Virus record (IMG/VR): IMGVR_UViG_3300050821_001527
Location: 62,001 to 126,000 of that record
Length of the DNA stretch: 64,000 bases
Origin: a virus
Reading direction: 5' to 3' (one strand)
Shown here: piece by piece, positions 42,068-64,000 of the stretch
How the letters are laid out: each line of letters opens with the position of its first letter
Numbering within the stretch: the stretch's first letter is position 1
Translations under genes and position numbers: made by a program
The notes under the pieces: generated by a model
What the model was told of the DNA's origin: nothing
The model's input: the letters and a program-made list of their open reading frames with translations, nothing else
Database searches by the model: none

Positions 42068-42159
42068 CAATAAGGATAGACCATTTTTTTGAAATAAAAT
42101 TCACGAACGCACGGGACTGCCCCTGTATGATGTTTCTTAGCAAATATAGGCAGACATCC

Positions 42160-46617: not shown

Positions 46618-47001
46618 GGGGACGTAATGGTTTCGACATTTATTGTTGAAAGCCGAACGCAAGCACGGGATGATTGTTGGCCCGTTAAAAATTCAATCAA
46701 AACATAAATGCTAACAAAGTAGCACTTAGAAATGCAGTTGACTGCGGAGTAGTTCGCGGTTTTGCAGCATTTGCGATGGCTTAATGCCGTCCCGTCCACC
46801 ACTCCGATTCTCGCTACGAGTGAATGGGCGTAAAAACAGCGGGAAAAAACCCTAGAGCCGGTTCGAGGGTAACGGAACCGGATATTGATGGTGAGTTTTG
46901 CTGCCAGTGTAGCCAATCAAGAATATCAAAGGCTGATAAGCTTGTAGTGTTTTTCTTGCAAACGTAAGTGGACGCGGGTTCAACTCCCGCCGTCTCCACC
47001 A
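46618..47001 (+). ncRNA. ssrA: tmRNA (SsrA), 384 nt with encoded CCA
   Basis: GGGGACG (46618-46624) pairs with CGTCTCC (46991-46997) as the tRNA-like acceptor stem, followed by ACCA. The 3' end carries a normal T-arm with loop TTCAACT and the family's conserved AAGCTTGTAGT stretch. The likely resume codon is GCT near 46709 and the tag would read ANKVALRN... ending ...FAAFAMA before TAA (24 residues, longer than the usual 8-15). Rescues stalled ribosomes; reading frame of the tag is inferred. Confidence 0.85.
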
Positions 47002-48473: not shown

Positions 48474-49061
48474 ATGTCGTGTGAAAAAACTCTGATTGAA
48501 AGAATCCAGACTGGGAAAGATGAAAAAGCGTTTGAAGAACTTATGGAGTTACATAGGGAAAGAACGCTTGGCTCCATAAAAAGCCAATGCCGTTTCTCTC
48601 CGGTTGACCCAAATGAAGTCTGGAATATCGCGCTCGTCAAGGTCTGGAACTCAATCGGGGCTTTTCGAGGCGACAGCAAATTCAGCACATGGCTGTATCA
48701 TATTGTCCGAAACGTCATTTATAATGAGTGGGCCAAACTGAATCGAATTTCCCGCAACGAGGTTCATCTTGAAAATATTGACACTCAGACCAGCGAATTT
48801 TCCACGTCAGAAACCCCGTTGTCAACAATTTCCAAGGAGGAATTTCAAGCCGAACTGGGTAATAGAATTTGCGGGTTGAAAATGGAGTTGGGGGAAAAGC
48901 ACAGGAAGGTTTTTGAATTAGTGTTTGAACAGGGCAAGTCTTACTCCGAAGTCGCGCAGTTGCTTGATTGCCCGCGTGGAACCGTAATGAGTCGAGTCTT
49001 TGCTGTCAGGAGAAAACTCCAAGCCGCCCTTGAAAAATATGAACATATTACAGCTAACTAA
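48474..49061 (+). CDS. ECF-type RNA polymerase sigma factor
   Basis: 195 residues. Region 2: EVWNIALVKVWNSIGAFRGDSKFSTWLYHIVRNVIYNEW, with the F(R)GDSKFSTWLY core typical of ECF sigmas. Region 4: LVFEQGKSYSEVAQLLDCPRGTVMSRVFAVRRKL helix-turn-helix. A second phage sigma in addition to 41468-42067; together they could serve different expression phases. Confidence 0.88.
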   Translation: MSCEKTLIERIQTGKDEKAFEELMELHRERTLGSIKSQCRFSPVDPNEVWNIALVKVWNSIGAFRGDSKFSTWLYHIVRNVIYNEWAKLNRISRNEVHLENIDTQTSEFSTSETPLSTISKEEFQAELGNRICGLKMELGEKHRKVFELVFEQGKSYSEVAQLLDCPRGTVMSRVFAVRRKLQAALEKYEHITAN

Positions 49062-54681: not shown

Positions 54682-54755
54682 GCGGTAGTGGTGAAATAGT
54701 ATCACACGACGTTGCCAACGTTGAAGCGTCGGGGCAGAACCGACTTACCGCACCA
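54682..54755 (+). tRNA. tRNA-Gly(GCC)
   Basis: GCGGTAG/TTACCGC acceptor, ACCA encoded, anticodon loop TTGCCAA, all stems good. D-loop AATAGTA and T-loop GGCAGAA: A18-G19 with G55-C56, not the standard GG with TTC. Confidence 0.85.
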
Positions 54756-54833
54756 ATTACTTCTCGCAGGAGTGCGATGGGCCAATCCAAAAGGTTCGCC
54801 CGCTAAAAACTCCCCGTCCAACGACGGGCATAC

Positions 54834-54905
54834 ATCCAGTTGTTCAAGAGAACAATGCGAACTCCAAATCCGCAGAGCAGGGCGCGATACCTTGACTGGA
54901 TGCCA
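54834..54905 (+). tRNA. tRNA-Trp(CCA), short D-loop
   Basis: ATCCAGT/ACTGGAT, discriminator G, CCA. Anticodon loop CTCCAAA; stem with one mismatch. D-arm GTTC-AAGA-GAAC has only a 4-nt loop. T-loop CGCGATA (G55-C56). Confidence 0.7.
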
Positions 54906-54906
54906 T

Positions 54907-55386
54907 TTAATGAGGGTTGTGTTTGACGACCCTTTCGCATAGAGCGATAAACTCGTCAACCGAAAGGTCTTGTTTAGCGTAGTTCACTTCGCTAGTAACC
55001 AAGCCACAGTTCGCCAGAGATGATTCGCCGCCTTTTGAAACTGCGACGATATGGTCTAGGGAATAGGTTTCCGGCTTGGAAATGTCAATTCTTTCACCAG
55101 TAAGATAGCAGCGTGGCTCACTTCCGATTTTATCCTTGAGTTGTTGAACGGTGAATTTGACGACTTTTGGGCGCACAGAACTTCTTCGATTGCCCCTGTA
55201 AAACGTCGCAATCTTAGAAACGAGAGGATTAGTTTCTCGGTAGTTTTTGGTGTTCTTTTGCATAGAAAGCTTTCTGTTCGGGCTGAAACGGTAGATAAGA
55301 GTCCATTTTGAGATTCCGGTTTCCTTGGCAACCGCGTCATAGCTCATTCCGTCAGTAAGCATTTTTTGAATTTTTTCATCGTTCAT
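54907..55386 (-). CDS. HNH endonuclease in tRNA array
   Basis: 160 residues from ATG 55386, chosen because TAATAT (55392-55397) lies 5 nt upstream on this strand. An N-terminal helix-turn-helix-like part (MSYDAVAKETGISKWTLIYRF), then CYLTGERIDI...YSLDHIVAVSKGGESSLANCGLVTSEVNYAKQ: the HNH metal motif with DH, then N and N. It runs opposite to the tRNAs and its 3' end is 2 nt from tRNA-Trp. Probably a selfish homing enzyme within the array. Confidence 0.85.
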   Translation of the reverse strand: MNDEKIQKMLTDGMSYDAVAKETGISKWTLIYRFSPNRKLSMQKNTKNYRETNPLVSKIATFYRGNRRSSVRPKVVKFTVQQLKDKIGSEPRCYLTGERIDISKPETYSLDHIVAVSKGGESSLANCGLVTSEVNYAKQDLSVDEFIALCERVVKHNPH

Positions 55387-55437
55387 ACAAGATATTACAC
55401 TTGCAAATTGCCAGTGGGAACTTGCAATGACGATTTT

Positions 55438-55509
55438 GGGCGTGTGTAGAAGGCTACTGGTTTGCTTTGCAAGCAAATTGTCGGGGAGCGTTACCCCGCA
55501 TGTCCACCA
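55438..55509 (+). tRNA. tRNA-Ala(TGC)
   Basis: GGGCGTG/CATGTCC, ACCA; anticodon stem TTTGC/GCAAA, loop TTTGCAA. D-arm GTAG-AAGG-CTAC with a 4-nt loop. T-loop AGCGTTA (G55-C56). Confidence 0.8.
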
Positions 55510-55515
55510 ATTTTA

Positions 55516-55677
55516 CGGGTGTTGGCGAAAGTCAGTCAAGCTGACAGCGGAACCGTTAGAAAACCCGCCAAACGCAACCTCAAGTGTGGAGAATACTGGC
55601 TCATATAATTGCCTGAAAAGGCGATACAATGGGGGTTTTTAATGTCTCCTTGTGGGTATAACTCCCACACACCCGCC
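55516..55677 (+). tRNA. tRNA-like RNA with about 75-nt insertion, unresolved
   Basis: CGGGTGT pairs with ACACCCG before CCA, and GTGGG-TATAACT-CCCAC is a T-arm, but the span is 162 nt. An internal AAACCCGCCA at 55561-55570 repeats the 3' end pattern. Either a tRNA with an insertion or two nested tRNA remnants. Anticodon unassigned. Confidence 0.4.
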
Positions 55678-55997
55678 AATTTCAGTAGCATTAGCGGTTA
55701 AGGCAATACGATTAGTTACGTGAGCCTCCGTCCACAAGGTAGTGGGTATAATCAAGAAACAAGTGACTCGGTGCCTAAAAGGAGTCATCCCAATGAGCGG
55801 GCGAAAGCTTGTCGCGTTCACCGATTACAAGGTGCATTGGTGCGATAAATGCAGGGTGCGAATCCCAAGCTGAAAGTATTTCTATCGGCATCAACACAAT
55901 GAACACACCGGCTTAAATGAGTTTCATAACTATGTTGAGTTAGCCGCGTGGTGCTGGTGAGTCGGCGGGTAATCAATCCCGTATGGAGAAAAGTTTC
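55678..55997 (+). other. 320-nt segment without CDS, hairpin rich
   Basis: Contains strong hairpins, for example TGACTC/GAGTCA near 55763-55787 and TGCATT/AATGCA near 55833-55853, and a T-arm-like CAGGG-TGCGAAT-CCCAA near 55851. No CCA-ended cloverleaf resolved. May hold decayed or permuted tRNAs. Confidence 0.35.
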
Positions 55998-56071
55998 GGG
56001 GTTGTGGTTCAATAGCAGAACGGCGGATTCGCAATTCGCAGACGACGGCGCGATACCGTCCTACTCCACCA
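55998..56071 (+). tRNA. tRNA-Ala(CGC)
   Basis: GGGGTTG/CTACTCC with one U-U mismatch, ACCA. Anticodon loop TTCGCAA on GCGGA/TTCGC. D-loop AATAGCA, T-loop CGCGATA. Confidence 0.8.
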
Positions 56072-56075
56072 ATTT

Positions 56076-56158
56076 CAATTTCCGGCCTGCCGTTTGGGTG
56101 CGAGTCCCAAGTTTAAGCAAGTGAAAGCGGCTAACTAGCATAGGTCAATGGTCGGCCA
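56076..56158 (+). tRNA. Possible permuted tRNA-like element, unresolved
   Basis: A T-arm (TTGGG-TGCGAGT-CCCAA, 56094-56110) precedes a D-arm (CTA-ACTAGCA-TAG) and the ends CGGCC (56083-56087) and GGTCG (56150-56154) pair. This is the order expected of a permuted tRNA, but acceptor pairing is poor and the gap before the 3' stem is long. Confidence 0.3.
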
Positions 56159-56162
56159 ATTT

Positions 56163-56236
56163 GGGGTCATAGTTCAATAGTAGAACGCGAGGCTGGCAGT
56201 CTTGTAATCAGAGTGCGATTCTCTGTGGCTCCACCA
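56163..56236 (+). tRNA. tRNA-Ala(GGC)
   Basis: GGGGTCA/TGGCTCC, ACCA. Anticodon loop CTGGCAG on CGAGG/TCTTG. D-loop AATAGTA, T-loop TGCGATT. Confidence 0.8.
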
Positions 56237-56343
56237 ATTTCTGAAACGTTCGGGATGGTGTAACGCGCTTTGGCGGTTCATTCGCCATTGCGAACTTCCG
56301 TTGTATCGAGAGAAGCGAAACGGCGTTTCGGGCAAACTTTAAT

Positions 56344-56437
56344 GGCCGGTGTCCCCATCGGGAGTCTGTAAAACTTCTATGCTTACAAATGTGATGGGAA
56401 GTTGCACCGAAGGAGCGTTACCTTCACCGCGCCACCA
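56344..56437 (+). tRNA. tRNA-like, class II size, anticodon uncertain (TCT?)
   Basis: GGCCGGTG pairs with CACCGCGCC with one bulge, ACCA follows. D-arm TCCC-CATC-GGGA has a 4-nt loop; T-arm GAAGG-AGCGTTA-CCTTC is sound. The anticodon arm is weak; loop CTTCTAT would give TCT. Confidence 0.45.
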
Positions 56438-56651
56438 ATTTCTTCTTGACCGAAAACCAGACCTGTAAACCGAATGTCCCGGTAGGTTGCACGTATTGGT
56501 GAGTAAGAGGACACAGGAAGGAAAATTTTCATCCACTGGCGCACTGGCGCTAGTGCGAGATTCGGGGTGGGTGGCAATGAAGACCGAAGCCCCGACAACG
56601 CGAAACCTGCAAAAAGTGGTTTAACTACCGAGAGAGAGGACTCGGCGTAAT

Positions 56652-56727
56652 GGTGGTATTGATGTAATAGTTAGCATCTTCCCCTGTGAAGGGAACTGTG
56701 CGGGTGCGAATCCCGTATATCACCCCA
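56652..56727 (+). tRNA. tRNA-His(GTG) with encoded G-1
   Basis: GTGGTAT/ATATCAC with G-1 at 56652 opposite C73, the histidine identity pair, then CCA. Anticodon stem TTCCC/GGGAA, loop CTGTGAA. D-loop with AATAGTTA, T-loop TGCGAAT. Correct identity elements argue it is functional despite the odd elbow. Confidence 0.88.
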
Positions 56728-56767
56728 ATTTCATTCACGTAGAACATGAAAGTGTGTAATAAAAGTT

Positions 56768-57214
56768 ATGAGCAGCGTTGACTCACTCGAAAACCACGAC
56801 CAGTTCCATTTGGAACAACTGCACAAGCTTTCCTGTCAAAGCGGCTCGAAGGACATTCTCGTTATTGACGATAGCACGGGCGACTTGATGGACATTCAGA
56901 AGATTATGAACCTCAAGTATGCAGACCAATTTCACGTAAGGTATTGTCTGGACGCTGAAAAGGGGATTGAGATTCTCAAGGAAAACAATTTCTTTTTGGT
57001 TTTGCTCGATTTCAAGATGCCGAAGTTGAACGGTCTTGAAGTAATCGAGACGGTAAACAAGATGAAGCAGAACGTTCCGTTCGTAGTTTTGACGGGATAC
57101 GGCGACCCATCCATGCGCGAAGCATTGACAAGATTGGGCGTAATGCTCCTGTTGGACAAGCCAATCACGGAGAAGAAGCTGGACATGCTCCTGACTTTGA
57201 CTCACGCGAAATAA
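56768..57214 (+). CDS. CheY-like response regulator receiver protein
   Basis: 148 residues. Receiver fold from residue 28: ILVIDDSTGD (acidic pair), FFLVLLDFKMPKLNG (phospho-acceptor Asp), PFVVLTGYG (Thr), MLLLDKPI (Lys). No output domain. A 27-residue polar N-terminal extension. TAATAA ends 5 nt before ATG, so leaderless. Sits inside the tRNA array. It may sequester phosphoryl groups or tap into a host phosphorelay. Confidence 0.88.
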   Translation: MSSVDSLENHDQFHLEQLHKLSCQSGSKDILVIDDSTGDLMDIQKIMNLKYADQFHVRYCLDAEKGIEILKENNFFLVLLDFKMPKLNGLEVIETVNKMKQNVPFVVLTGYGDPSMREALTRLGVMLLLDKPITEKKLDMLLTLTHAK

Positions 57215-57219
57215 TTTCT

Positions 57220-57296
57220 GGCCGCATAGCTCAAATAGATAGAGCAGCACCCCGCGAAGGTGAAGGTTGTAGGTGCGACTCCTACTGTGGCTACCA
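57220..57296 (+). tRNA. tRNA-Arg(GCG), C33
   Basis: GGCCGCA/TGTGGCT, ACCA; D-stem GCTC/GAGC with loop AAATAGATA; T-arm GTAGG-TGCGACT-CCTAC. Anticodon loop CCGCGAA has C at position 33, where U is near universal. Confidence 0.78.
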
Positions 57297-57493
57297 TTTT
57301 CCCGCATAGTCCGTTGAGCAGCCCCGTAGCAACGAGGAAACAAAAGCTTGATGGTTCAGCCAAGCCGTGCGCCAGCGCGGTATTTGCGTGGTGCGAGTCC
57401 ACGGGGAACGATTTATCCCCCTGCTGGTATAGTCCAGCGAAGTAGGTGAGGCTAACCTATGAGTGGTTCGTAACGCACAAGAGGGAATTTTAT
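57297..57493 (+). other. 197-nt segment between tRNAs, T-arm-like and hairpin elements
   Basis: Holds CGTGG-TGCGAGT-CCACG (T-arm-like, 57388-57404) and CTGG-TATAGT-CCAG (D-arm-like, 57423-57436), in that order, without a CCA end. No full cloverleaf found. Confidence 0.35.
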
Positions 57494-57576
57494 GGGCATG
57501 TAACCGAAGCAGTCCTCGAAACTGATTAACCGTAATTATGTTGCAAATGTGGGTGAGATTCCCTCCATGCCTACCA
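57494..57576 (+). tRNA. tRNA, probable Arg(TCG), C33, D-arm unclear
   Basis: GGGCATG/CATGCCT, ACCA. Anticodon CAGT/ACTG with loop CCTCGAA. T-loop TGAGATT with one stem mismatch. The D region is too short for a normal arm and the variable region is long (about 23 nt). Confidence 0.5.
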
Positions 57577-57662
57577 ATTTCTCTGTTTGACAATCGAGCC
57601 TAAATAGTCTGCACAGACGGCGCGGGTTCGTAGATGTTGTGCGAAACGGAGGATTCATTTCT

Positions 57663-57755
57663 GTTCCCGTAGCTGAAAGACAGCCGGTGCCCTTATAAAG
57701 CACTTAATCGCTAGATTGGCGTAAGACTCAGGAGCGTTACCTGACGGGAATACCA
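57663..57755 (+). tRNA. tRNA, class II size, anticodon probably TAT
   Basis: GTTCCCG/CGGGAAT, ACCA; T-arm TCAGG-AGCGTTA-CCTGA; D-arm GCTG-AAAGA-CAGC. Anticodon stem GTGCC/AGCAC, loop CTTATAA. A stem-forming variable arm (about 20 nt) is odd for Ile. Confidence 0.6.
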
Positions 57756-57762
57756 AATTTTA

Positions 57763-57846
57763 CGCATCGTGACATAAGCGCGAATAGCACAGCCACACGT
57801 CTCAAAAATGTGAGTTTTAAGGGTGCGAGTCCCTTCGATGCGACCA
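57763..57846 (+). tRNA. tRNA-Leu(CAA), short variable loop
   Basis: CGCATCG/CGATGCG, ACCA; anticodon stem CACGT/ATGTG, loop CTCAAAA; T-arm AAGGG-TGCGAGT-CCCTT. Variable region only about 6 nt (AGTTTT). Confidence 0.75.
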
Positions 57847-57852
57847 ATTTAT

Positions 57853-57928
57853 GTGCCTATGATGGAATAGCATACATACCAGCCTCAGAAGTTGGGTTTT
57901 GCAGGTGCGAGTCCTGCTAGGCATACCA
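57853..57928 (+). tRNA. tRNA-Leu(CAG), short variable loop
   Basis: GTGCCTA/TAGGCAT, ACCA; D-stem ATG/CAT with GAATAGCATA; anticodon CCAGC/GTTGG, loop CTCAGAA; T-loop TGCGAGT; variable region GTTTT. Confidence 0.8.
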
Positions 57929-57933
57929 TTTCC

Positions 57934-58017
57934 CGCTCCGTGACCTTGTAGCGAACAGCACAGCTTGCCGTCTTAGACACGGTGGTTTTGCAGGTGCGAG
58001 TCCTGTCGGAGCGACCA
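57934..58017 (+). tRNA. tRNA-Leu(TAG), short variable loop
   Basis: CGCTCCG/CGGAGCG, ACCA; anticodon GCCGT/ACGGT, loop CTTAGAC; T-arm GCAGG-TGCGAGT-CCTGT; variable GGTTTT. The D region is longer than usual. Confidence 0.78.
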
Positions 58018-58022
58018 ATTTA

Positions 58023-58110
58023 GCCAGTGTGGTGAAAGAGCAGACACACCATCTTGAGAAGGTGGCGCGAATAAAGTAGCGTGTAGGTGCGAATCCTATC
58101 ACTGGCACCA
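58023..58110 (+). tRNA. tRNA-Leu(GAG), class II
   Basis: GCCAGTG/CACTGGC perfect, ACCA; D-stem GTG/CAC loop AAAGAGCAGA; anticodon CCATC/GGTGG, loop TTGAGAA; variable arm with CGC...GCG; T-loop TGCGAAT. Confidence 0.85.
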
Positions 58111-58192
58111 ATTTCCTAATGGAAGGTCTGTTAGGACACAGTAGCAGTCGAGATTCTAACCGCCTCGCCGGGGCGTTGCTACACGGCATTAC

Positions 58193-58267
58193 GGTCTATT
58201 GTTGAATGAGTTATCATAGTTCCCTGTCACGGAGCAATAACGGGTGCGAGTCCCGTATAGACCGCCA
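58193..58267 (+). tRNA. tRNA-Asp(GTC)
   Basis: GGTCTAT/ATAGACC, G73 as expected for Asp, CCA; anticodon GTTCC/GGAGC, loop CTGTCAC; D-loop ATGAGTTA, T-loop TGCGAGT. Confidence 0.83.
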
Positions 58268-58271
58268 TTTT

Positions 58272-58340
58272 ACGGCTGAGTTAGCGATTCCTGCGCGTGG
58301 GAACGAGACGATTCACTTCGTTTAACTGATGAAGCCGCCA
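58272..58340 (+). tRNA. Degenerate tRNA-like element
   Basis: CGGCT pairs with AGCCG before CCA; TTCC/GGAA and TTCA/TGAA stems inside with a TTTAACT stretch. Too few pairs for a firm tRNA; perhaps decayed. Confidence 0.35.
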
Positions 58341-58345
58341 ATTTT

Positions 58346-58422
58346 GGGATAGAAGGTAAAGTAGTGGAACCGTTCCGTTGTCTGCGGAAAAAAAGTGGGT
58401 GCGACTCCCATCTATCTCGCCA
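58346..58422 (+). tRNA. tRNA, probable Asp(GTC)
   Basis: GGGATAG/CTATCTC, G73, CCA; anticodon TTCCG/CGGAA, loop TTGTCTG; T-arm GTGGG-TGCGACT-CCCAT. D-stem GGT/ACC with an 11-nt loop. Confidence 0.7.
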
Positions 58423-58432
58423 TTTTGTCAGA

Positions 58433-58512
58433 GAAGTCCGTCAACCATGCGGTTGACCCGTATGGAGAACGTCGAGTTCAGACATATTGTATAGCTGGCC
58501 ACTTAGGACTTC
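58433..58512 (+). ncRNA. CCA-less four-arm structured element
   Basis: GAAGTCC (58433-58439) and GGACTTC (58506-58512) close a perfect 7-bp stem around a 7-bp hairpin GTCAACC-ATGC-GGTTGAC and a GAAC/GTTC hairpin. No CCA and no tRNA loops, but it occupies a tRNA slot. Confidence 0.4.
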
Positions 58513-58517
58513 CGTTC

Positions 58518-58595
58518 AGTCAGTGAGGGAGTAAGATAACCCCGACGCCTGCAAAGCGTTTCGTATAGTCGGAGCATTACCGACACTGACTTCCA
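58518..58595 (+). tRNA. tRNA-Cys(GCA)
   Basis: AGTCAGT/ACTGACT, U73 as required for Cys, CCA; D-stem GGG/CCC loop AGTAAGATAA; anticodon GACGC/GCGTT, loop CTGCAAA; T-loop AGCATTA. Confidence 0.85.
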
Positions 58596-58599
58596 TTTC

Positions 58600-58676
58600 G
58601 TCCTAATGGTGTAAGGGAATTACAACACGGTAGTCTTCGGACTACAGATGCAAGCCAACTATTGCAAGGGACTCCA
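58600..58676 (+). tRNA. tRNA, anticodon uncertain (TCG or TTC)
   Basis: GTCCT pairs with GGGAC, U73, CCA. Anticodon arm GTAGT/ACTAC closes only six nt (CTTCGG). T-arm TGCAA...TTGCA with GCCAACT loop. Reads as a diverged tRNA. Confidence 0.45.
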
Positions 58677-58680
58677 ATTT

Positions 58681-58757
58681 CGGTTTGTCGCCTAGTGTTC
58701 ATGGCACTCGCCTTGGGAGCGAGCATAACGCGGGTTAAAATCCCGCCAAGCCGACCA
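58681..58757 (+). tRNA. tRNA-Pro(TGG)
   Basis: CGGTTTG/CAAGCCG, ACCA; anticodon CTCGC/GCGAG, loop CTTGGGA; T-arm GCGGG-TTAAAAT-CCCGC (U55-A56) with D-loop TAGTGTTCAT (G18-U19), another matching pair. Confidence 0.82.
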
Positions 58758-58766
58758 TTTTTTAGA

Positions 58767-58843
58767 CGGGGTATAATGTCAGCAGCTAGACGGCTCCCTT
58801 CGGAGGGGAGAGGCCGTGGGTGCGAATCCCACTACCCCGACCA
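58767..58843 (+). tRNA. tRNA-Pro(CGG)
   Basis: CGGGGTA/TACCCCG perfect, ACCA; anticodon CTCCC/GGGAG, loop TTCGGAG; D-stem GTC/GAC loop AGCAGCTA; T-loop TGCGAAT. Confidence 0.83.
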
Positions 58844-58847
58844 TTTA

Positions 58848-58919
58848 TGCAGGAAGAATGAGATTCAAGCGGGCCTCATAAGCCTACCCCCGTGGACGCG
58901 ACTTCCACTCCTGCTTCCA
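58848..58919 (+). tRNA. tRNA, CAT anticodon (Met or Ile2)
   Basis: TGCAGGA/TCCTGCT with a 1-72 mismatch, then TCCA. Anticodon loop CTCATAA. D-arm GAAT-GAG-ATTC has a 3-nt loop. T-arm GTGGA-CGCGACT-TCCAC. Confidence 0.65.
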
Positions 58920-58947
58920 TTTTTTATCGAACAGAAACCGTTCTCCG

Positions 58948-58953
58948 ATATAA
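58948..58953 (+). promoter_or_regulatory. -10 box TATAAT inside array
   Basis: TATAAT lies 10 nt before tRNA 58964; the -35 is poor (ATCGAA at 17 nt). Possible internal array promoter. Confidence 0.4.
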
Positions 58954-58963
58954 TAGATATTTA

Positions 58964-59041
58964 CGCGGGGTGGACAAGTAGTAAGTCGTTGGCCTCATAA
59001 GCCAAATATCGTCAGGTGCGATTCCTGACCTCACGCAACCA
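58964..59041 (+). tRNA. tRNA-Met(CAT), possibly initiator
   Basis: CGCGGGG against CCTCACGCA with a bulge; C1 opposite A72 and A73 as in bacterial initiators. Anticodon TTGGC/GCCAA, loop CTCATAA, lacking the GGG/CCC initiator pairs. D-loop AAGTAGTAA, T-loop TGCGATT. Confidence 0.68.
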
Positions 59042-59044
59042 TTT

Positions 59045-59461
59045 ATGGAAGACGCCGTTCTCAACACGCAAAAAGCCTTGGACACCGCATTGGCATCATT
59101 GAATGCGCTGGCTAAAAAAGATTACGTTCCTCCGACAACCCCCGACATTGACCCCGAAACTGAAATGCCGATTAAAGGGAATGGCACGGAAGAATATGAT
59201 ACCGAAGACGCTTACGAGGATGGGGAAGAAGCAGTCCGTCTGTGCATTGAAATTGCCCAGTTGAGGCTAGAGGTCGAGGGCCAGCCCCGCCGTGCTATCG
59301 TCAACACGGAAAAGGCGGCAGAAATCCGAGCAAGGGGAGCGATTGACAAGGTAAGACCAGAGCGTCACCTGAGCGTTTCTCCCGAACTTATCAAGAGTAT
59401 CGAACATTCCGTAGCTAAACCGGAAATGATGTTCTTCGTTTTGGAAGAACCCAAGGAATAA
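59045..59461 (+). CDS. Unknown acidic protein in tRNA array
   Basis: 138 residues, very acidic (EEYDTEDAYEDGEEAV), helical. No family recognised. ATG is 4 nt after the CCA of tRNA-Met and its stop lies 7 nt before the next tRNA, so RNase processing would release it with a 3-nt leader. Confidence 0.6.
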   Translation: MEDAVLNTQKALDTALASLNALAKKDYVPPTTPDIDPETEMPIKGNGTEEYDTEDAYEDGEEAVRLCIEIAQLRLEVEGQPRRAIVNTEKAAEIRARGAIDKVRPERHLSVSPELIKSIEHSVAKPEMMFFVLEEPKE

Positions 59462-59467
59462 GATTTC

Positions 59468-59542
59468 GCGTTGTTGGCAGAGAAGTGATGCGCTTGCCTT
59501 CCAAGCAAGTTTAAGTGGGAGCATTACCCACACAACGCTCCA
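59468..59542 (+). tRNA. tRNA-Gly(TCC)
   Basis: GCGTTGT/ACAACGC perfect, U73, CCA; anticodon CTTGC/GCAAG, loop CTTCCAA; D-stem GCA/TGC loop GAGAAGTGA; T-loop AGCATTA. Confidence 0.85.
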
Positions 59543-59973
59543 ATTTGTCCGAAGCTATAATCCCCGTGCGTAATAGCACTAAGCGCAAGTAGGCCGAAAG
59601 GCAGAACCGTGATGGTGGATGAACTGCTCGTCTAAAATATCGGCTACATAATTTAGTCAGGTCGTCGGTCTGTCGTTGCGGTGAGCAATCACCAAGCCTA
59701 TGGGACGGCGGCTCGAAAAGGTATCCGTAAGCTGGCAGGAATCGCTTGTGCAAGATTCCACTACCGAAGGAGAATGCGGCGAAAGCCAAGTTCGTTCGCA
59801 CTTGTAGTAGGTCAGTCATCTCAGCCGAGGCAGGCATTTTCAAAATCGTTAGGGTTAGTCCAACCACGGTAAAACGTGAGAGGGGTCATAAAAGACTGCA
59901 AGCGTCACCCTGCCTAAAACCCCCTGTTGGTGAGTGGATAGTTGAAAACGAGGTCAGCGATGACCTGACTTTT
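59543..59973 (+). other. 431-nt segment without CDS, several hairpins
   Basis: Has GGAATC/GATTCC near 59739-59760 and AGGTCA-GCGA-TGACCT at 59951-59966, but no CCA-ended cloverleaf and no sound ORF. The longest rightward frame (59746-60072) runs through tRNA 59974. Could be a structured RNA or several decayed tRNAs. Confidence 0.4.
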
Positions 59974-60049
59974 AGCCGCATGGTGAAATTACAATCACAC
60001 AATCCTGCGAAGATTGAAGTCCCGGTGAGATTCCGGGTGCTGGCTACCA
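59974..60049 (+). tRNA. tRNA-Arg(GCG), second copy
   Basis: AGCCGCA against TGCTGGCT with a bulge, ACCA; D-stem GTGA/TCAC; anticodon CAATC/GATTG, loop CTGCGAA (U33 present); T-arm CCCGG-TGAGATT-CCGGG. Confidence 0.7.
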
Positions 60050-60053
60050 TTTT

Positions 60054-60128
60054 GCGACATAGGTGTTTATAGATACACGCGAGTCTTCCAAACTTGAGTA
60101 GTGAGTGCGATACTCACACGTCGCTCCA
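60054..60128 (+). tRNA. tRNA-Gly(TCC), second copy
   Basis: GCGACAT/ACGTCGC with one mismatch, U73, CCA; anticodon CGAGT/ACTTG, loop CTTCCAA; D-stem GTGT/ACAC loop TTATAGAT; T-loop TGCGATA. Confidence 0.8.
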
Positions 60129-60133
60129 ATTTA

Positions 60134-60186
60134 TGCACCCAAAACTTGCAAGTTACTCGACCCATGAATCGAGTGTGGTGCAACCA
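60134..60186 (+). tRNA. 53-nt mini tRNA-like hairpin cassette
   Basis: TGCACC pairs with GGTGCA before ACCA; between them AACTT/AAGTT and CTCGA-CCCATGAA-TCGAG hairpins. No T-arm. Either a truncated tRNA or a real T-armless one; loop includes CAT. Confidence 0.45.
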
Positions 60187-60192
60187 ATTTAT

Positions 60193-60267
60193 TCCCTAGT
60201 AGTGTCAAAGTAGCACGTCTCCCTGTTAAGGAGTTTAGTGTTGGTGCGAGTCCAACCTTCGGAACCA
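60193..60267 (+). tRNA. tRNA-Asn(GTT), acceptor mismatched
   Basis: TCCCTAG against CTTCGGA has two mismatches; ACCA. Anticodon loop CTGTTAA; D-stem GTG/CAC; T-arm GTTGG-TGCGAGT-CCAAC. Confidence 0.68.
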
Positions 60268-60279
60268 TTTAGTCAGCAT

Positions 60280-60364
60280 TCCAGAGTAGGAGAATTGGTA
60301 AACCCAGCGGACTGTTAATCCGCCGCGAAAGCAACTGCTCGTTCAAGTCGAGCCTCTGGAGCCA
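60280..60364 (+). tRNA. tRNA-Asn(GTT), canonical type
   Basis: TCCAGAG/CTCTGGA perfect, G73, CCA; anticodon GCGGA/TCCGC, loop CTGTTAA; D-loop AATTGGTAAA with GG and T-loop TTCAAGT: the standard elbow. Variable region 13 nt. Looks recently derived from a bacterial tRNA. Confidence 0.88.
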
Positions 60365-60376
60365 TTTTCAAGACAT

Positions 60377-60464
60377 TTCCCCTGACGAAAGCTCTACGAT
60401 GTAGAACATCGCACCAGCAAGTCATGGTTACATGACGTGTCCGTGGACGCACGGAAGCGGGGAG
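60377..60464 (+). ncRNA. CCA-less four-arm structured element
   Basis: TTCCCC and GGGGAG close three hairpins: CTAC-GAT-GTAG, GTCATG-GTTA-CATGAC, CCGTG-GACG-CACGG. A cloverleaf-like outline without tRNA loops or CCA. Confidence 0.4.
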
Positions 60465-60474
60465 TTTGAATTTT

Positions 60475-60552
60475 GCATCCGTCAACCAAACGCGTAAATG
60501 ACTCGGGCTTTTAACCCAAAGGATGTGGTCACGCAAGCCACCGGATGCACCA
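60475..60552 (+). tRNA. tRNA-Lys(TTT)
   Basis: GCATCCG/CGGATGC perfect, ACCA; anticodon loop CTTTTAA, stem with one mismatch; T-arm GTGGT-CACGCAA-GCCAC (A55-C56); D region holds CG at 18-19. Confidence 0.75.
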
Positions 60553-60670
60553 ATTTCTACCTGAACACAAGTGCTATGTCATCGAGCCAAGTCACGGTTA
60601 TTGTGTATCGTGAAAATTCCGTTGACAATGTAGCAATGCGCGAGAAAGACGCGCACGGGTTCCTTTTCAT

Positions 60671-60744
60671 AGGGATATAGTATAAAAGTAGAACGGCACC
60701 CTGACACGGTGAAGGCGAAGGAGCGTTACCTTCTATCCCTACCA
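60671..60744 (+). tRNA. tRNA-Val(GAC)
   Basis: AGGGATA/TATCCCT perfect, ACCA; anticodon GCACC/GGTGA, loop CTGACAC; D-loop AAAAGTA; T-arm GAAGG-AGCGTTA-CCTTC. Confidence 0.82.
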
Positions 60745-60749
60745 TTTTA

Positions 60750-60830
60750 TGAGAATCGAGACGCGGGTGCATATCCCGCCTGCCTGTTTAAATACTTGCA
60801 GTAGCTTAGTAGCAGAGCGCGATTCGTCTC
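60750..60830 (+). tRNA. Circularly permuted tRNA candidate A
   Basis: Order is 3' half then 5' half: AATCG (60754-60758), AGAC, T-arm GCGGG-TGCATAT-CCCGC, CTGCCTG, 8 nt, CTTGCAG, TA, D-arm GCTT-AGTAGCA-GAGC, G, CGATT (60820-60824). AATCG and CGATT make a 5-bp anticodon stem across the ends; four acceptor pairs next to the T-stem hold. D- and T-loops share the A18/G55 type, as expected if they belong to one tRNA. No CCA encoded. Confidence 0.5.
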
Positions 60831-60838
60831 CCTTTTAC

Positions 60839-60917
60839 GGAACGGTAACTCAAATGGGTCAAGAGTGTTCGCCCGATTAGCGAAAGGTTGTGGACTCCCA
60901 AGCCACTCGTTCTACCA
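60839..60917 (+). tRNA. tRNA-Ile(GAT), C33
   Basis: GGAACGG/TCGTTCT, ACCA; D-stem ACTC/GAGT loop AAATGGGTCAA (GG); anticodon TTCGC/GCGAA, loop CCGATTA with C33; T-loop CTCCCAA (U55-C56). Confidence 0.72.
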
Positions 60918-60922
60918 ATCAC

Positions 60923-60995
60923 GGTTCCATACGATAAAGCAGTCCCCATGCCCGATTAGCGTGGTGTCTTGGTGCGAGTCCAAGTGGAACTACCA
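60923..60995 (+). tRNA. tRNA-Ile(GAT), C33, second copy
   Basis: GGTTCCA/TGGAACT, ACCA; anticodon CATGC/GCGTG, loop CCGATTA; T-arm CTTGG-TGCGAGT-CCAAG; D-loop type AAAGCA. Confidence 0.75.
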
Positions 60996-61000
60996 TTTAC

Positions 61001-61076
61001 TGCCCTTTAGCTCATTCAGCAGAGCGGCGTCTTGATAAGGCGAAGGTGGTCGGGGCAGAGCCGACAAGGGCAACCA
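61001..61076 (+). tRNA. tRNA-Ile(GAT), U33
   Basis: TGCCCTT/AAGGGCA perfect, ACCA; D-stem GCTC/GAGC loop ATTCAGCA; anticodon loop TTGATAA; T-arm GTCGG-GGCAGAG-CCGAC. Confidence 0.83.
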
Positions 61077-61079
61077 ATT

Positions 61080-61244
61080 ATGAAACCATACGGATTGACA
61101 AAGAAAATCCTACACAACCATCCCGATGTTCACCCGCCGAAGGGCTGGGTCAACTGGTGGGAAAGCGAAACGAGGGACTGTCTCCGCAAGAAAGCAGAAC
61201 GCCAACAGGCGAAAAAACAGATTTTACAAGATTTGGCTTCGTAG
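61080..61244 (+). CDS. Small basic protein in tRNA array
   Basis: 54 residues: KPYGLTKKIL...PPKGWVNWWES, then a Lys/Gln/Arg helix. Unknown. ATG is 4 nt after the CCA of tRNA-Ile and its last codons overlap the first 10 nt of tRNA-Lys (61235). Confidence 0.6.
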   Translation: MKPYGLTKKILHNHPDVHPPKGWVNWWESETRDCLRKKAERQQAKKQILQDLAS

Positions 61245-61311
61245 CTCAAGCGTCAAGAGCAGCCGCCTTTTAAGCGGAAGCGTCCGGGCAGTCAATCCGG
61301 TGGGGCCACCA
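61235..61311 (+). tRNA. tRNA-Lys(TTT), second copy
   Basis: GGCTTCG/TGGGGCC (several G-U), ACCA; D-stem GCTC/GAGC loop AAGCGTCAA; anticodon GCCGC/GCGGA, loop CTTTTAA; T-arm CCGGG-CAGTCAA-TCCGG. Overlaps the preceding ORF. Confidence 0.75.
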
Positions 61312-61317
61312 ATTTAT

Positions 61318-61425
61318 AAACACCTAGACCGTGTGCGATACCGGCATGGTTTCGTGAGTCGGCTATGTCGAAGCCGAAGAAGATTCGCGGGACTTGGAGT
61401 GTGAAAGAAGCACGGGTGTATTTTT
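61318..61425 (+). ncRNA. Terminal stem plus U-run; tRNA-like internal arms
   Basis: ACACC near 61320 pairs with GGGTGT near 61415, followed by seven Ts; CGGCT-ATGTCGA-AGCCG is a 7-nt-loop hairpin inside. May be a terminator after the Ile-Lys group with a decayed tRNA inside. Confidence 0.4.
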
Positions 61426-61453
61426 TTGAATAAAAAGCGGATTCGTTTATCAT
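61426..61453 (+). promoter_or_regulatory. Promoter of gene 61458, leaderless
   Basis: TTGAAT (61426-61431), 16-nt spacer, TATCAT (61448-61453), only 4 nt to ATG. The start site falls on or inside the start codon. Confidence 0.68.
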
Positions 61454-61457
61454 AGGT

Positions 61458-61835
61458 ATGCAAAACGTTTATCTGAACCGCGACGAACTCCTGCCGATTG
61501 TCAAGGAGAACAAGCAAAAGCACGACAACATTTTTTCCACAGCCGTTTCCGGCTATTGGGTCAAGGCCGAAGAAATCCTGAACGGCAAACTGAACAAGGT
61601 CAAAGCCAAGCAGCAAGTTGACAATTACCTTGGACTCAGCTATCCCGAAGACCATTCTGATGAATATGACCGAGTAATCAGGATGCTGGAACTTTCGTCT
61701 GATGACAAGATTCAGCTTACGTCTTCCGAGTTTGATTGCTATGTTCGCAATCAATGGAACTGGCGCAAGGCGTTCTTGACGGTCAATTCAACATACATTT
61801 CGGACTGGAACCCCATTTCCGGGGCTTCATTCTAA
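61458..61835 (+). CDS. Unknown protein in tRNA array
   Basis: 125 residues, helical, charged; NRDELLPIVKENKQKHDNIF and EEILNGKLNKVKAKQQVDNYLGLSYPEDH. Similar wording occurs in small phage proteins but I cannot name the family. Own leaderless promoter. Its stop overlaps the outer helix of permuted tRNA B. Confidence 0.6.
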   Translation: MQNVYLNRDELLPIVKENKQKHDNIFSTAVSGYWVKAEEILNGKLNKVKAKQQVDNYLGLSYPEDHSDEYDRVIRMLELSSDDKIQLTSSEFDCYVRNQWNWRKAFLTVNSTYISDWNPISGASF

Positions 61836-61916
61836 CAGTCTTGGTCGAGGCGTGGGTTCGATTCCGCCGTGTGGCTCCATGCCGCACGTAGCTTAGTGGC
61901 AGAGCGCGACCTGTTC
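61834..61916 (+). tRNA. Circularly permuted tRNA candidate B
   Basis: Order: GGTCG (61843-61847), AGGC, T-arm with canonical loop TTCGATT, GTGTGGC (61869-61875), T, CCA (61877-61879), one nt, GCCGCAC (61881-61887), then D-arm GCTT-AGTGGCA-GAGC, G, CGACC (61907-61911). The acceptor (7 bp) and anticodon stem (5 bp) pair perfectly across the halves. Outside, AACA and TGTT form a second helix across a 5-nt bulge, a bulge-helix-like junction. The T-stem has two mismatches. Anticodon not determinable before splicing is known. Confidence 0.6.
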
Positions 61917-61991
61917 GGGGCTATGGTGCAGAAGTAAGCACGTTAGGTTCTCAACCTGAAAACGTCGGAGCGTTACCGACTAGCCCTACCA
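61917..61991 (+). tRNA. tRNA-Glu(CTC)
   Basis: GGGGCTA/TAGCCCT, ACCA; D-stem GTGC/GCAC loop AGAAGTAA; anticodon TTAGG/CCTGA, loop TTCTCAA; T-arm GTCGG-AGCGTTA-CCGAC. Confidence 0.84.
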
Positions 61992-61997
61992 ATTTAC

Positions 61998-62073
61998 GGG
62001 GGAGTGGTGCATAAGTAAGCACGGTTGGCTTTCACCCAGCAGAAGCTCGGAGCGTTACCGGCCTCCCCTACCA
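61998..62073 (+). tRNA. tRNA-Glu(TTC)
   Basis: GGGGGAG/CTCCCCT, ACCA; D-stem GTGC/GCAC loop ATAAGTAA; anticodon GTTGG/CCAGC, loop CTTTCAC; T-loop AGCGTTA with one stem mismatch. Confidence 0.82.
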
Positions 62074-62078
62074 TTTCT

Positions 62079-62156
62079 GTAGCTGACCAGTAAGTCGTCG
62101 TCTGCTCTGGCTTTCAACCAGATGTGTAGTGGGTGCGAGTCCCACCAGCTATGCCA
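62079..62156 (+). tRNA. tRNA-Glu(TTC), second copy
   Basis: GTAGCTG/CAGCTAT, G73, CCA; anticodon TCTGG/CCAGA, loop CTTTCAA; T-arm GTGGG-TGCGAGT-CCCAC. The D region is irregular. Confidence 0.75.
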
Positions 62157-62161
62157 TTTCC

Positions 62162-62216
62162 GGGGTGCGCCTCGTCAATTCGTTGATAGGACGGCGAATA
62201 TATCACCCCACTTTTT
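62162..62216 (+). terminator. Rod-like hairpin followed by U-run
   Basis: GGGGTG (62162-62167) and CACCCC (62204-62209) enclose CGCC/GGCG and TCAA-TTCG-TTGA; ACTTTTT follows. Could terminate or separate array transcripts. Confidence 0.5.
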
Positions 62217-62219
62217 CTC

Positions 62220-62297
62220 GGTTCCGTGGTGTAAATGGATTAAGCACAAGAGACTTTGACCCTCTTAGCTCCGGGTGCCAGCCGGACGGAACTGCCA
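62220..62297 (+). tRNA. tRNA-Gln(TTG)
   Basis: GGTTCCG/CGGAACT, G73, CCA; D-stem GTGT/GCAC loop AAATGGATTAA (GG); anticodon AGAGA/CCTCT with one mismatch, loop CTTTGAC; T-arm TCCGG-GTGCCAG-CCGGA (U55). Confidence 0.75.
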
Positions 62298-62304
62298 TTT
62301 TTAT

Positions 62305-62380
62305 TCCCTCTTGGATTGTAATAGTAGCAACTCGGGCTTTGAACCCGAAAGCGGTGGGGCAGAACCATCAGAGGGAGCCA
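62305..62380 (+). tRNA. tRNA-Gln(TTG), second copy
   Basis: TCCCTCT/AGAGGGA perfect, G73, CCA; anticodon TCGGG/CCCGA, loop CTTTGAA; D-stem TTG/CAA loop TAATAGTAG; T-loop GGCAGAA. Confidence 0.83.
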
Positions 62381-62385
62381 TTTAT

Positions 62386-62456
62386 CGGGGTAAGGGTGTA
62401 TTCGTGTAACGACCACTCGGAAGGAGTCTGGAAGCTTACGGACAAACTTCGTCCCC
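62386..62456 (+). ncRNA. CCA-less structured element
   Basis: GGGG (62387-62390) pairs with CCCC (62453-62456); ACTC-GGAAG-GAGT hairpin at 62415-62427 and a GTC/GAC arm follow. Third example of a CCA-less element in a tRNA slot. Confidence 0.35.
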
Positions 62457-62465
62457 ATCTATTTT

Positions 62466-62541
62466 CGGAGTGTATTGTCAACAGCAGACGGCCCGCCTTG
62501 GAAGTGGGAGGTAGTTGGGGCAGCACCAACCATTCCGACCA
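62466..62541 (+). tRNA. tRNA-Pro(TGG), second copy
   Basis: CGGAGTG/CATTCCG, ACCA; D-stem GTC/GAC loop AACAGCA; anticodon CCCGC/GTGGG, loop CTTGGAA; T-arm GTTGG-GGCAGCA-CCAAC. Confidence 0.82.
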
Positions 62542-62545
62542 ATTT

Positions 62546-62728
62546 ATGAACACTGAAAAAATCGTAGGTCAAGAATATCCAGCCGAATGTCTCGTTGATT
62601 CCAAGACGGGTCTGCCGGTGATGATTCGTCATACCGAAGATTCGGACAGGATTCGTCAGTTGGCGAAGGCCAGCGCGGAGAACCTTCTGAGGGCTTTGCG
62701 AGACGAAACGGGGCTGACGCCCATTTAA
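62546..62728 (+). CDS. Small unknown protein in tRNA array
   Basis: 60 residues (NTEKIVGQEYPAECLVDSKTGLPV...), alpha/beta then helix. ATG 4 nt after the CCA of tRNA-Pro, stop 6 nt before tRNA-Arg. The frame opens at 62129 but that part is tRNA. Unknown. Confidence 0.6.
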   Translation: MNTEKIVGQEYPAECLVDSKTGLPVMIRHTEDSDRIRQLAKASAENLLRALRDETGLTPI

Positions 62729-62733
62729 TTTAC

Positions 62734-62809
62734 GGGTCTATAACTCAAATAGATAGAGCCTCGCCTTCTAAGCGATGGGATTCAGGTGCGACTCCTGATA
62801 GACCTACCA
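62734..62809 (+). tRNA. tRNA-Arg(TCT)
   Basis: GGGTCTA/TAGACCT, ACCA; D-loop AAATAGATA; anticodon CTCGC/GCGAT, loop CTTCTAA; T-arm TCAGG-TGCGACT-CCTGA. Confidence 0.82.
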
Positions 62810-62832
62810 TTTCTAGTATAGCCACATGGCGT

Positions 62833-62861
62833 TTCACAAGTGCTTCAACTAGGTGTAATTC
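62833..62861 (+). promoter_or_regulatory. Promoter of second HNH gene, leaderless
   Basis: TTCACA (62833-62838), 17-nt spacer, TAATTC (62856-62861), 5 nt, ATG. Confidence 0.6.
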
Positions 62862-62866
62862 TAGGT

Positions 62867-63343
62867 ATGGGCCACAAAGCTACAAACGAACAACTGGCGG
62901 TTATTATCGCAGAGTCTATTTCCTTCTCTGAGGCAATGAGAAAATGCGATATGAAGCCAAGGGGAGCGTCTTACCAATGGTTTCAAAAACGAGTTAAGAA
63001 GCTCGGATTAGACACGTCTCATTTTAAGGGATACTCGGCTGGTGGTCTGGAAAGGGCCAAGCAGATAAAGAAGCATTGGTCGGAGATTCTTGTTTTAGGA
63101 GACGGTTCGGGCAGAGAAAGGTCAGAGCCTCTTAGGAGGGCTTTTAAAGAATACTGCTTAGAGCAGGCAGTCCCACATATTTGCAACGTCTGCAACGTCT
63201 GCAAGATGGAACCAATTTGGAATGGCCAGCCAATGATATTTCAAATTGACCACATCAATTCAATCAATTTCGATAACAGACCGCTGAACCTTCAATGGAT
63301 TTGCGGCAACTGTCATCAACAGAAAAATTCTAACGGCTACTAA
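62867..63343 (+). CDS. HNH endonuclease in tRNA array
   Basis: 158 residues from ATG 62867, which fits the promoter; the frame opens at 62840. N-terminal HTH-like segment (SISFSEAMRKCDMKPRGASYQWFQKR), then CNVCNVC, FQIDHINSINFDNRPLNLQWICGNCHQQK: HNH core with a zinc-binding Cys set. Unrelated in detail to the HNH at 54907-55386. Its last 9 nt form the 5' acceptor strand of tRNA-Phe, so insertion preserved that tRNA. Confidence 0.88.
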   Translation: MGHKATNEQLAVIIAESISFSEAMRKCDMKPRGASYQWFQKRVKKLGLDTSHFKGYSAGGLERAKQIKKHWSEILVLGDGSGRERSEPLRRAFKEYCLEQAVPHICNVCNVCKMEPIWNGQPMIFQIDHINSINFDNRPLNLQWICGNCHQQKNSNGY

Positions 63344-63410
63344 GCTAATCAAGTGAAAGCAGCGGACTGAAAATCCGTGGAGTTTGGCGCGATACCAAAA
63401 GTAGCCACCA
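63335..63410 (+). tRNA. tRNA-Phe(GAA)
   Basis: GGCTACT/AGTAGCC perfect, ACCA; D-stem GCT/AGC loop AATCAAGTGAA; anticodon GCGGA/TCCGT, loop CTGAAAA; T-arm TTTGG-CGCGATA-CCAAA. Overlaps HNH stop codon. Confidence 0.84.
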
Positions 63411-63415
63411 ATTTT

Positions 63416-63563
63416 GGGTATATGTTGTAATGGCAGCAAAAAGGGCGGGAGAGTCGAGGGAATAGCAGACCAACTATAGCTCTGTAAGCCTAGTAGCTCG
63501 ATTTGAAAACCTGAATACTCGTCTATACGAGTGGCCTCGGTTCGATTCCGGGTATATCCACCA
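63416..63563 (+). tRNA. tRNA-like with about 60-nt extra, possibly Tyr
   Basis: GGGTATA/TATATCC, ACCA; D-stem TTG/CAA loop TAATGGCAG (GG); T-arm CTCGG-TTCGATT-CCGGG (canonical); strong variable arm ACTCG-TCTATA-CGAGT marks class II. The middle has too many bases for one anticodon arm; CTGTAAG within it could be a Tyr(GTA) loop. Maybe an intron. Confidence 0.5.
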
Positions 63564-63567
63564 ATCT

Positions 63568-63646
63568 CCGTCAGTAGCTCAAATGTGGTAAGAGCGTTGG
63601 TTTGAAACACCAAAGGTTGTCGTTCCCCAAACGACTTGACGGGCCA
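63568..63646 (+). tRNA. tRNA-Phe(GAA), second copy
   Basis: CCGTCAG/TTGACGG, G73, CCA; D-stem GCTC/GAGC loop AAATGTGGTAA (GG); anticodon TTGGT/ACCAA, loop TTGAAAC; T-arm GTCGT-TCCCCAA-ACGAC. Its 3' strand supplies TTGACG for the next gene's promoter. Confidence 0.78.
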
Positions 63647-63666
63647 TTTTAAGTGTATAATTCTGT

Positions 63667-63921
63667 GTGGAAGCACTAGCAAAACAGACCCTTCAATGTG
63701 ATGACTGCAAGAAAGTCATTGACACCCGCCGCGATACTGACCTTGAGGACAGCATCCAAGCGAAGTTGAAGAACCTCAAGGGCGACCCGCAGGTTTATCA
63801 TTTCTGCGCGGAAAGCTGCCTTGCCTCCTTTTTGCAGAAGCGCATCAAGAAAAAGAACGCCCGCGCCTCATACGACGCTTTCGCCTACGAGATTGATTTG
63901 TCCGGGGCAAAGGTTAAATAA
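63667..63921 (+). CDS. Small unknown protein, GTG start
   Basis: 84 residues from GTG 63667. CDDCKKVID near the start and CAESCL near residue 57 suggest a zinc site; Lys-rich tail. TATAAT ends 5 nt before the GTG, so leaderless. The TTGACG upstream lies in the last tRNA with only about 14-nt spacing. Confidence 0.6.
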   Translation: MEALAKQTLQCDDCKKVIDTRRDTDLEDSIQAKLKNLKGDPQVYHFCAESCLASFLQKRIKKKNARASYDAFAYEIDLSGAKVK

Positions 63922-64000
63922 TGAAATTTTCATCTTTCGCCAAGCTTGTGTTGATTTTCGGGGCAGCGATTATGCTCCTTGATGGTTGCGCTCTCGTTGG
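63921..64000 (+). CDS. Lipoprotein, 3' end outside window
   Basis: Starts in the previous stop (TAATG). The 26 codons seen give KFSSFAKLVLIFGAAIMLLDGC, a signal with lipobox Cys, then ALVG. Truncated by the window edge. Confidence 0.65.
   Translation, partial: MKFSSFAKLVLIFGAAIMLLDGCALV

Follow-up and report, generated by a model that had tools for sequence, protein, structure and literature searches.

Open reading frames directly behind transfer RNA genes in a phage array are predicted to be released as near-leaderless messages

We analyzed a window of 64,000 nucleotides (nt) of viral DNA, positions 62001-126000 of a 202,882-bp IMG/VR virus record, in which a one-strand array of transfer RNA (tRNA) genes contains open reading frames (ORFs) that start directly behind the encoded CCA end of a tRNA. 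These ORFs are probably freed by tRNA punctuation, with trimming behind the CCA yielding near-leaderless messenger RNAs (mRNAs) from a joint tRNA-mRNA transcript. Such a release had been proposed in a first-pass annotation for three ORFs of the window, and it fits the results obtained for Shine-Dalgarno (SD) motifs, promoters, distances and gene character, while the cutting and the translation of the products are predictions from these patterns. The anatomy itself is confirmed and is not limited to the three ORFs, as it recurs beyond the window and in three more phages.

The three ORFs of the window start 3, 3 and 4 nt past a tRNA CCA, as had been claimed. ORF 59045 (59045-59461, + strand, 138 amino acids) has no SD motif and no -10 box, and follows an initiator-like tRNA-Met(CAU) (58964-59041, +), whose CCA at 59039-59041 is separated from the ATG by a TTT spacer (59042-59044, +) that would become a 3-nt leader; its stop codon lies 6 nt before tRNA-Gly(UCC) (59468-59542, +). 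ORF 61080 (61080-61244, +, 54 amino acids), which encodes a conserved small protein, is preceded by tRNA-Ile(GAU) (61001-61076, +; CCA 61074-61076) and the spacer ATT, and overlaps tRNA-Lys(UUU) (61235-61311, +) by 10 nt because its UAG stop codon doubles as U8-A9-G10 of that tRNA. ORF 62546 (62546-62728, +, 60 amino acids) follows tRNA-Pro(UGG) (62466-62541, +; CCA 62539-62541) after the spacer ATTT and stops 5 nt before tRNA-Arg(UCU) (62734-62809, +). The 3′ ends had been placed 6–7 nt before, or up to 10 nt inside, the next tRNA, which describes the first two ORFs but not quite the third. All three thus abut a tRNA on their 3′ side, whereas several other CCA-adjacent ORFs have further ORFs before the next tRNA. 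In other phage arrays (e.g. L063, L109, L071), ORFs that enter a tRNA often stop at nt 8–10, where U8-A9-G10 reads UAG; the spike of stop codons at tRNA nt 10 is present but small (7 cases). In L063, an SD-like GGGGAGG was also seen within a tRNA acceptor strand, shortly upstream of an ATG.

The same 5′ abutment is found along the rest of the array, where five more ORFs begin 3–6 nt past a CCA (positions 4466, 5533, 6158, 7699 and 8119 of locus L002, to which 63,000 is added for window numbering), giving eight ORFs at 3–6 nt in the whole array. We then compared ATG-initiated ORFs of at least 50 codons behind a tRNA CCA in four phages, namely this one, G002 (136.8 kb, helicase 48% identical and 47 genes in common with this phage), G003 (106.8 kb, no helicase match, 8 genes in common) and G004 (107.6 kb, helicase 33% identical, 24 genes in common). 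The CCA-to-ATG distance was 2–7 nt for 19 ORFs, 8–35 nt for 2 and 36–59 nt for 17, against a chance level, taken from bins further on, of 2.25 ORFs per 6 nt on average. The comparison with other phages drew on an IMG/VR search with a T-arm plus CCAATTT pattern, which returned 120 stretches and, from these, 54 arrays of at least five tRNAs, this phage's included. In the other arrays the distances peaked at 12–17 nt, as expected with an SD motif in the gap, and 6 of 105 ORFs lay at 0–5 nt; the difference from the four phages was highly significant (Fisher p = 2.6e-12, on approximate counts). The short distance was also specific to ATG, since the 2–7 nt offsets held 19 ATG, no GTG and one TTG, and, among control triplets, no CTG, two ATA, no ACG and no AAG.

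The upstream sequences of these ORFs set them apart from the other genes of the phage. Purine-rich SD motifs 4–16 nt before the ATG do not exceed background in this phage, strong ones being found at 4.9% of ATG starts and at 4.1% of internal ATGs. Genes that lead an operon, that is, those not closely behind another gene, carry TANNNT at -12 in 32/105 cases and a -35 element at -35 from the ATG in 26/105, and these peaks have the sigma70 spacing that makes the A of the ATG the start point. Together with the lack of SD motifs, this sharp geometry predicts that the promoter-driven genes are leaderless, and the criterion is close to that used for bacterial leaderless genes (PMC3160421). The -12 peak is similar in G002, G003 and G004, which also have little SD signal. 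The leaderless theme to which the first-pass annotation had linked the three ORFs is matched by this promoter geometry across the genome. The CCA-adjacent ORFs, by contrast, have neither an SD motif in the gap nor the TA-like -10 box about 10–12 nt before the start: at leaderless distance, a -10 box was found for 0/18 ORFs within 7 nt of the CCA and for 11/22 at 30 nt or more. For a promoter to fit behind the tRNA without overlapping it, about 36 nt are required, and this accounts for the far group at 36–59 nt. The 5′ ends of the near group must arise in another way, and it is exactly in front of these ORFs that maturation of the tRNA 3′ end must cut.

Other ORFs of the array illustrate the contrast. 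The ORF at 61458-61835 (+, phrog_34511) is a promoter-driven, presumably leaderless gene with the -10 box TATCAT at 61448-61453 (+); a single-protein IMG/VR search with it returned no relatives, and the related ORFs of DLP_6 and Vibrio phages are placed in ordinary operons. A response-regulator ORF (56768-57214, +) lies 40 nt past the CCA of tRNA-His and an HNH-endonuclease ORF (62867-63343, +) 57 nt past a CCA, each with its own -10 box TGTAAT 7 nt before the ATG, and a GTG-initiated ORF (63667-63921, +), 20 nt past a CCA, has a TATAAT of its own that lies 5 nt ahead of the start.

Judged by orthology and codon use, the CCA-adjacent ORFs as a set are real genes, although single ORFs could still be spurious. 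Codon scores were higher for the 19 ORFs than for antisense ORFs (Mann-Whitney p = 3e-9). Relatives of ORF 61080, 38–52% identical, are present in five further phage contigs, of which two come from the same or nearly the same virus, with tRNA genes nearby in 4/4 loci examined and a tmRNA (transfer-messenger RNA) gene nearby in two; this small protein family, with the motif HPPKGWVNWWE, was seen near tRNA genes in L153, L171, L173 and L174 besides the window. A G004 ORF of 133 amino acids that starts 7 nt past a CCA has an orthologue in this phage, which stands in an ordinary operon, 3 nt past the upstream stop codon. Its orthologues in IMG/VR align at Met1; copies in L158, L161, L163 and L165 are led by an SD motif, and the L167 copy lies 28 nt past the CCA of a tRNA-Gln with the SD motif GGAG in the gap. 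The same gene thus seems to use different types of start depending on the phage.

We propose that these protein genes, set within a long tRNA array in a phage that would initiate most translation without leaders and without SD motifs, are co-transcribed with the tRNAs as one RNA or a few. A nuclease would cut just past the CCA that ends the upstream tRNA, within the UUU or AUUU trailer, an AU-rich stretch that would presumably suit RNase E-like cutting. The cut would leave a leader of 2–7 nt, and the product may be translated like a leaderless mRNA, through 70S-type initiation, while RNase P acting at the next tRNA would cut the 3′ side of the message. ORFs of the array that have no tRNA adjoining them would instead be driven by a sigma70 promoter from which transcription starts at the ATG itself. 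The phage's own initiator-like tRNA directly before ORF 59045, which has a C1xA72 mismatch and the pair A11:U24, was counted in favor of this proposal. Its unaided fold is a cloverleaf with position 1-72 open and with the AUG of the ORF outside the cloverleaf; in G004, too, there are CAU tRNAs in which the 1-72 pair is open.

Tight packing could give the same picture if, in a compact genome, starts independent of an SD motif were used on an uncut polycistronic RNA and no functional processing took place. ORFs of these phages do abut one another at 0–7 nt, and the orthologue of the G004 gene, in its operon, is just as close to its neighbor. Nevertheless, ORF-ORF spacings without a -10 box also fill the range of 8–35 nt (72, against 106 at 0–7 nt), which the spacings behind tRNAs do not (2 against 19), and this difference, modest as it is (p = 0.007), disfavors packing alone. 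Moreover, an ORF that follows a tRNA cannot be coupled to one upstream, the folded tRNA ends 3–4 nt before the AUG, and maturation of the tRNA must cut at that site anyway, so that we consider packing a rather unlikely account. Much less likely still are promoters hidden within the upstream tRNA genes that would start the messages at or near the ATG. Such promoters are indeed carried by other array ORFs, but in 18/18 CCA-adjacent ORFs the sequence at leaderless distance agrees with TATAAT at 1–3 of six positions at best, and the -10 position coincides with the 3′ strand of the acceptor stem, which is fixed by pairing. Several points nonetheless weigh against release by tRNA processing. A similar picture would be expected from a polycistronic transcript that stays uncut and is translated by SD-independent initiation, and the gene starts were taken from a simple caller. 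The trailer often ends in TTTAT before a G, so that an ATG at +3/+4 arises at some tRNA-tRNA junctions and the chance rate of a CCA-adjacent ATG is somewhat higher. Finally, some codon scores are weak when taken singly (0.06 for ORF 61080 and 0.03 for L002:8119).

The first-pass annotation had also described ATTT-like bases after every CCA and had seen in them a hint of cassette exchange. The trailer CCA-(A)(A)TTT follows 32 of the 36 well-scored tRNAs of the window and 45 of the 50 in the whole array, so that "every" was slightly too strong a word. As a sign of exchange the trailer fails: in a survey in which most loci had been selected for one CCAATTT-type site, CCA-(A)TTT followed 0–100% of the tRNAs of other arrays and more than 80% in many unrelated ones, and a U-run preceded tRNAs that have no CCA just upstream in 14/24 cases (background 0.12). 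Both findings point to an AU-rich processing flank rather than an exchange site. ATTT is not a boundary motif restricted to exchange junctions, and a junction of 3–5 nt is too short for recombination specificity. That the ORFs are mobile cassettes swapped through the repeated junction is thus highly improbable, even though two HNH endonuclease genes lie within the array, one CCA-adjacent gene recurs in an ordinary operon of a relative, and the comparison among related phages that had been suggested did reveal that the gene content of the array differs among the four. Some gene exchange does appear to take place, judging from the ordinary-operon orthologue of the G004 ORF, which is the one CCA-adjacent ORF among the four phages with a relative, located elsewhere, in the operon of this phage. 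The least credible explanation is that the reading frames are open by chance. No relatives of ORFs 59045 and 62546 turned up in the libraries searched, single-protein IMG/VR searches included, as would be the case for such frames; for the set, however, this explanation is refuted by the codon scores, the specificity for ATG and the homologues of ORF 61080 and of the G004 ORF.

The tRNA array lies on the + strand and extends from about 54,680 through the end of the window to about 71,830 (window numbering, same record); within the window, it covers 54682-64000 (+). The number of tRNAs in the window depended on the caller, with 16 from ARAGORN, about 24 from Rfam in E-value mode and 36, all ending in CCA, from our own caller, which found 50 well-scored tRNAs in the whole array. 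In a blastn comparison of the array with annotated phages, only individual tRNAs matched, and the record L130, which has an identical tail protein, is without the array. A search for the host with the helicase profile in GTDB contigs returned no match.

Most tRNAs of the array have an altered elbow, in which the pair G18-U55 is replaced by A18-G55 and A18-G19 takes the place of G18-G19 in the D loop. Among 600 well-scored tRNAs from 54 phage arrays, the D-loop GG was lost, mostly to AG, in 214/228 tRNAs with G55 and was present in 344/363 with U55 (Fisher p = 4e-118, a value that overstates independence because kin sequences are counted separately), and this covariation also held within mixed arrays. 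Positions 54-58 of the G55 tRNAs are mostly U-A, A-U, G-G or C-A. The A18/G55 pattern matched only four contigs among 84,980 bacterial and archaeal species, all in metagenome-assembled genomes of unrelated phyla, and one of these is an array with G55 in 9/10 tRNAs that is possibly of phage origin. At the level of loci, SD motifs were less frequent in G55-rich than in other arrays (10% vs 25%, p = 8e-5). The two groups did not differ in the -12 box, however, and we therefore claim no causal link between G55 and leaderless starts. We found no description of the A18-G55 elbow in the open-access literature.

Several further elements were observed in or near the array. A full-length match to raiA RNA (RF03072; 54.9 bits, E about 1e-11) lies within the array, at 59659-59966 (+); it scores under the gathering score of 101.3, and the conserved GGUCUGU and AGGUCAGC blocks are present. 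The corresponding array of G004 contains a GOLLD RNA (L140 6487-6856, -, about 46.5–46.9 kb of G004; 150.6 bits, gathering 150). The two HNH endonuclease genes inside the array are the one at 62867-63343 (+) and one at 54907-55383 (-), whose stop lies 1 nt past a tRNA CCA of the opposite strand. One CCA-adjacent ORF beyond the window (L002 5533-6006, equivalent to 68533-69006 of the window; 157 amino acids) gave a weak match to PTH2 peptidyl-tRNA hydrolase (20.1 bits, cut-off 23), and a PDB search with it gave marginal matches only. The phage also encodes a tmRNA (46618-47001, +), which could be of importance if the messages are cut near their own stop codons, on either side, and two sigma factor candidates were picked out by eye (41468-42070, -, and 48474-49061, +).

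Punctuation of transcripts by tRNAs is a textbook feature of animal mitochondrial genomes, where it was reportedly described by Ojala, Montoya and Attardi in 1981 (a study cited in PMC4633059). As in animal mitochondria, the phage ORFs lie between tRNAs at distances of zero to a few nucleotides, with no SD motif, no promoter of their own and almost no leader, and a stop codon can extend into the next tRNA. Unlike mitochondria, this is a DNA phage of bacteria in which many ORFs of the same array are promoter-driven, the CCA is encoded, the stop codons are complete and the cutting is predicted from sequence. In the E. coli tRNA-tufB operon a message is likewise said to be freed from a tRNA-bearing transcript, and tufB is said to keep a leader with an SD motif, whereas the phage ATG stands directly behind the CCA. 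Bacterial leaderless, TA-led genes have a TA-type -10 box about 10–12 nt before the ATG and no SD motif (PMC3160421, PMC9031893), an arrangement that dominates in this phage; the CCA-adjacent ORFs differ in that they have no -10 box and that their 5′ ends would stem from tRNA processing, with 2–7 nt left over. Dense tRNA genes, short spacers and interspersed ORFs are shared with known phage arrays, such as those of mycobacteriophages (PMC5966550) and of huge phages with many tRNAs, some of which lack SD motifs (PMC7162821). The searchable papers on phage tRNA arrays gave no description of ORFs that abut a CCA, of leaderless geometry or of the A18-G55 elbow, nor did we find phage tRNA arrays with leaderless mRNAs, or tRNA punctuation in phages, described in the open-access literature.

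We tentatively suggest that these phages may represent a large-phage lineage with mitochondria-like expression, in which nearly all messages would be made leaderless, either from promoters with the AUG as their start point or through excision of tRNAs, and would be used together with a phage initiator tRNA and tRNAs with an A18-G55 elbow; for ORFs whose UAG lies in nt 8–10 of a tRNA, each transcript would give either the tRNA or a complete message, not both. An independent occurrence of the punctuation anatomy in phages with genome-wide leaderless starts would show the two features to be linked, and such phages would offer a bacterial setting for testing tRNA punctuation. In their annotation, starts would be better called from the -10 geometry or the tRNA ends than from SD motifs. 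The A18-G55 elbow, if functional, would be a naturally occurring substitute for a tRNA contact that ranks among the most conserved.

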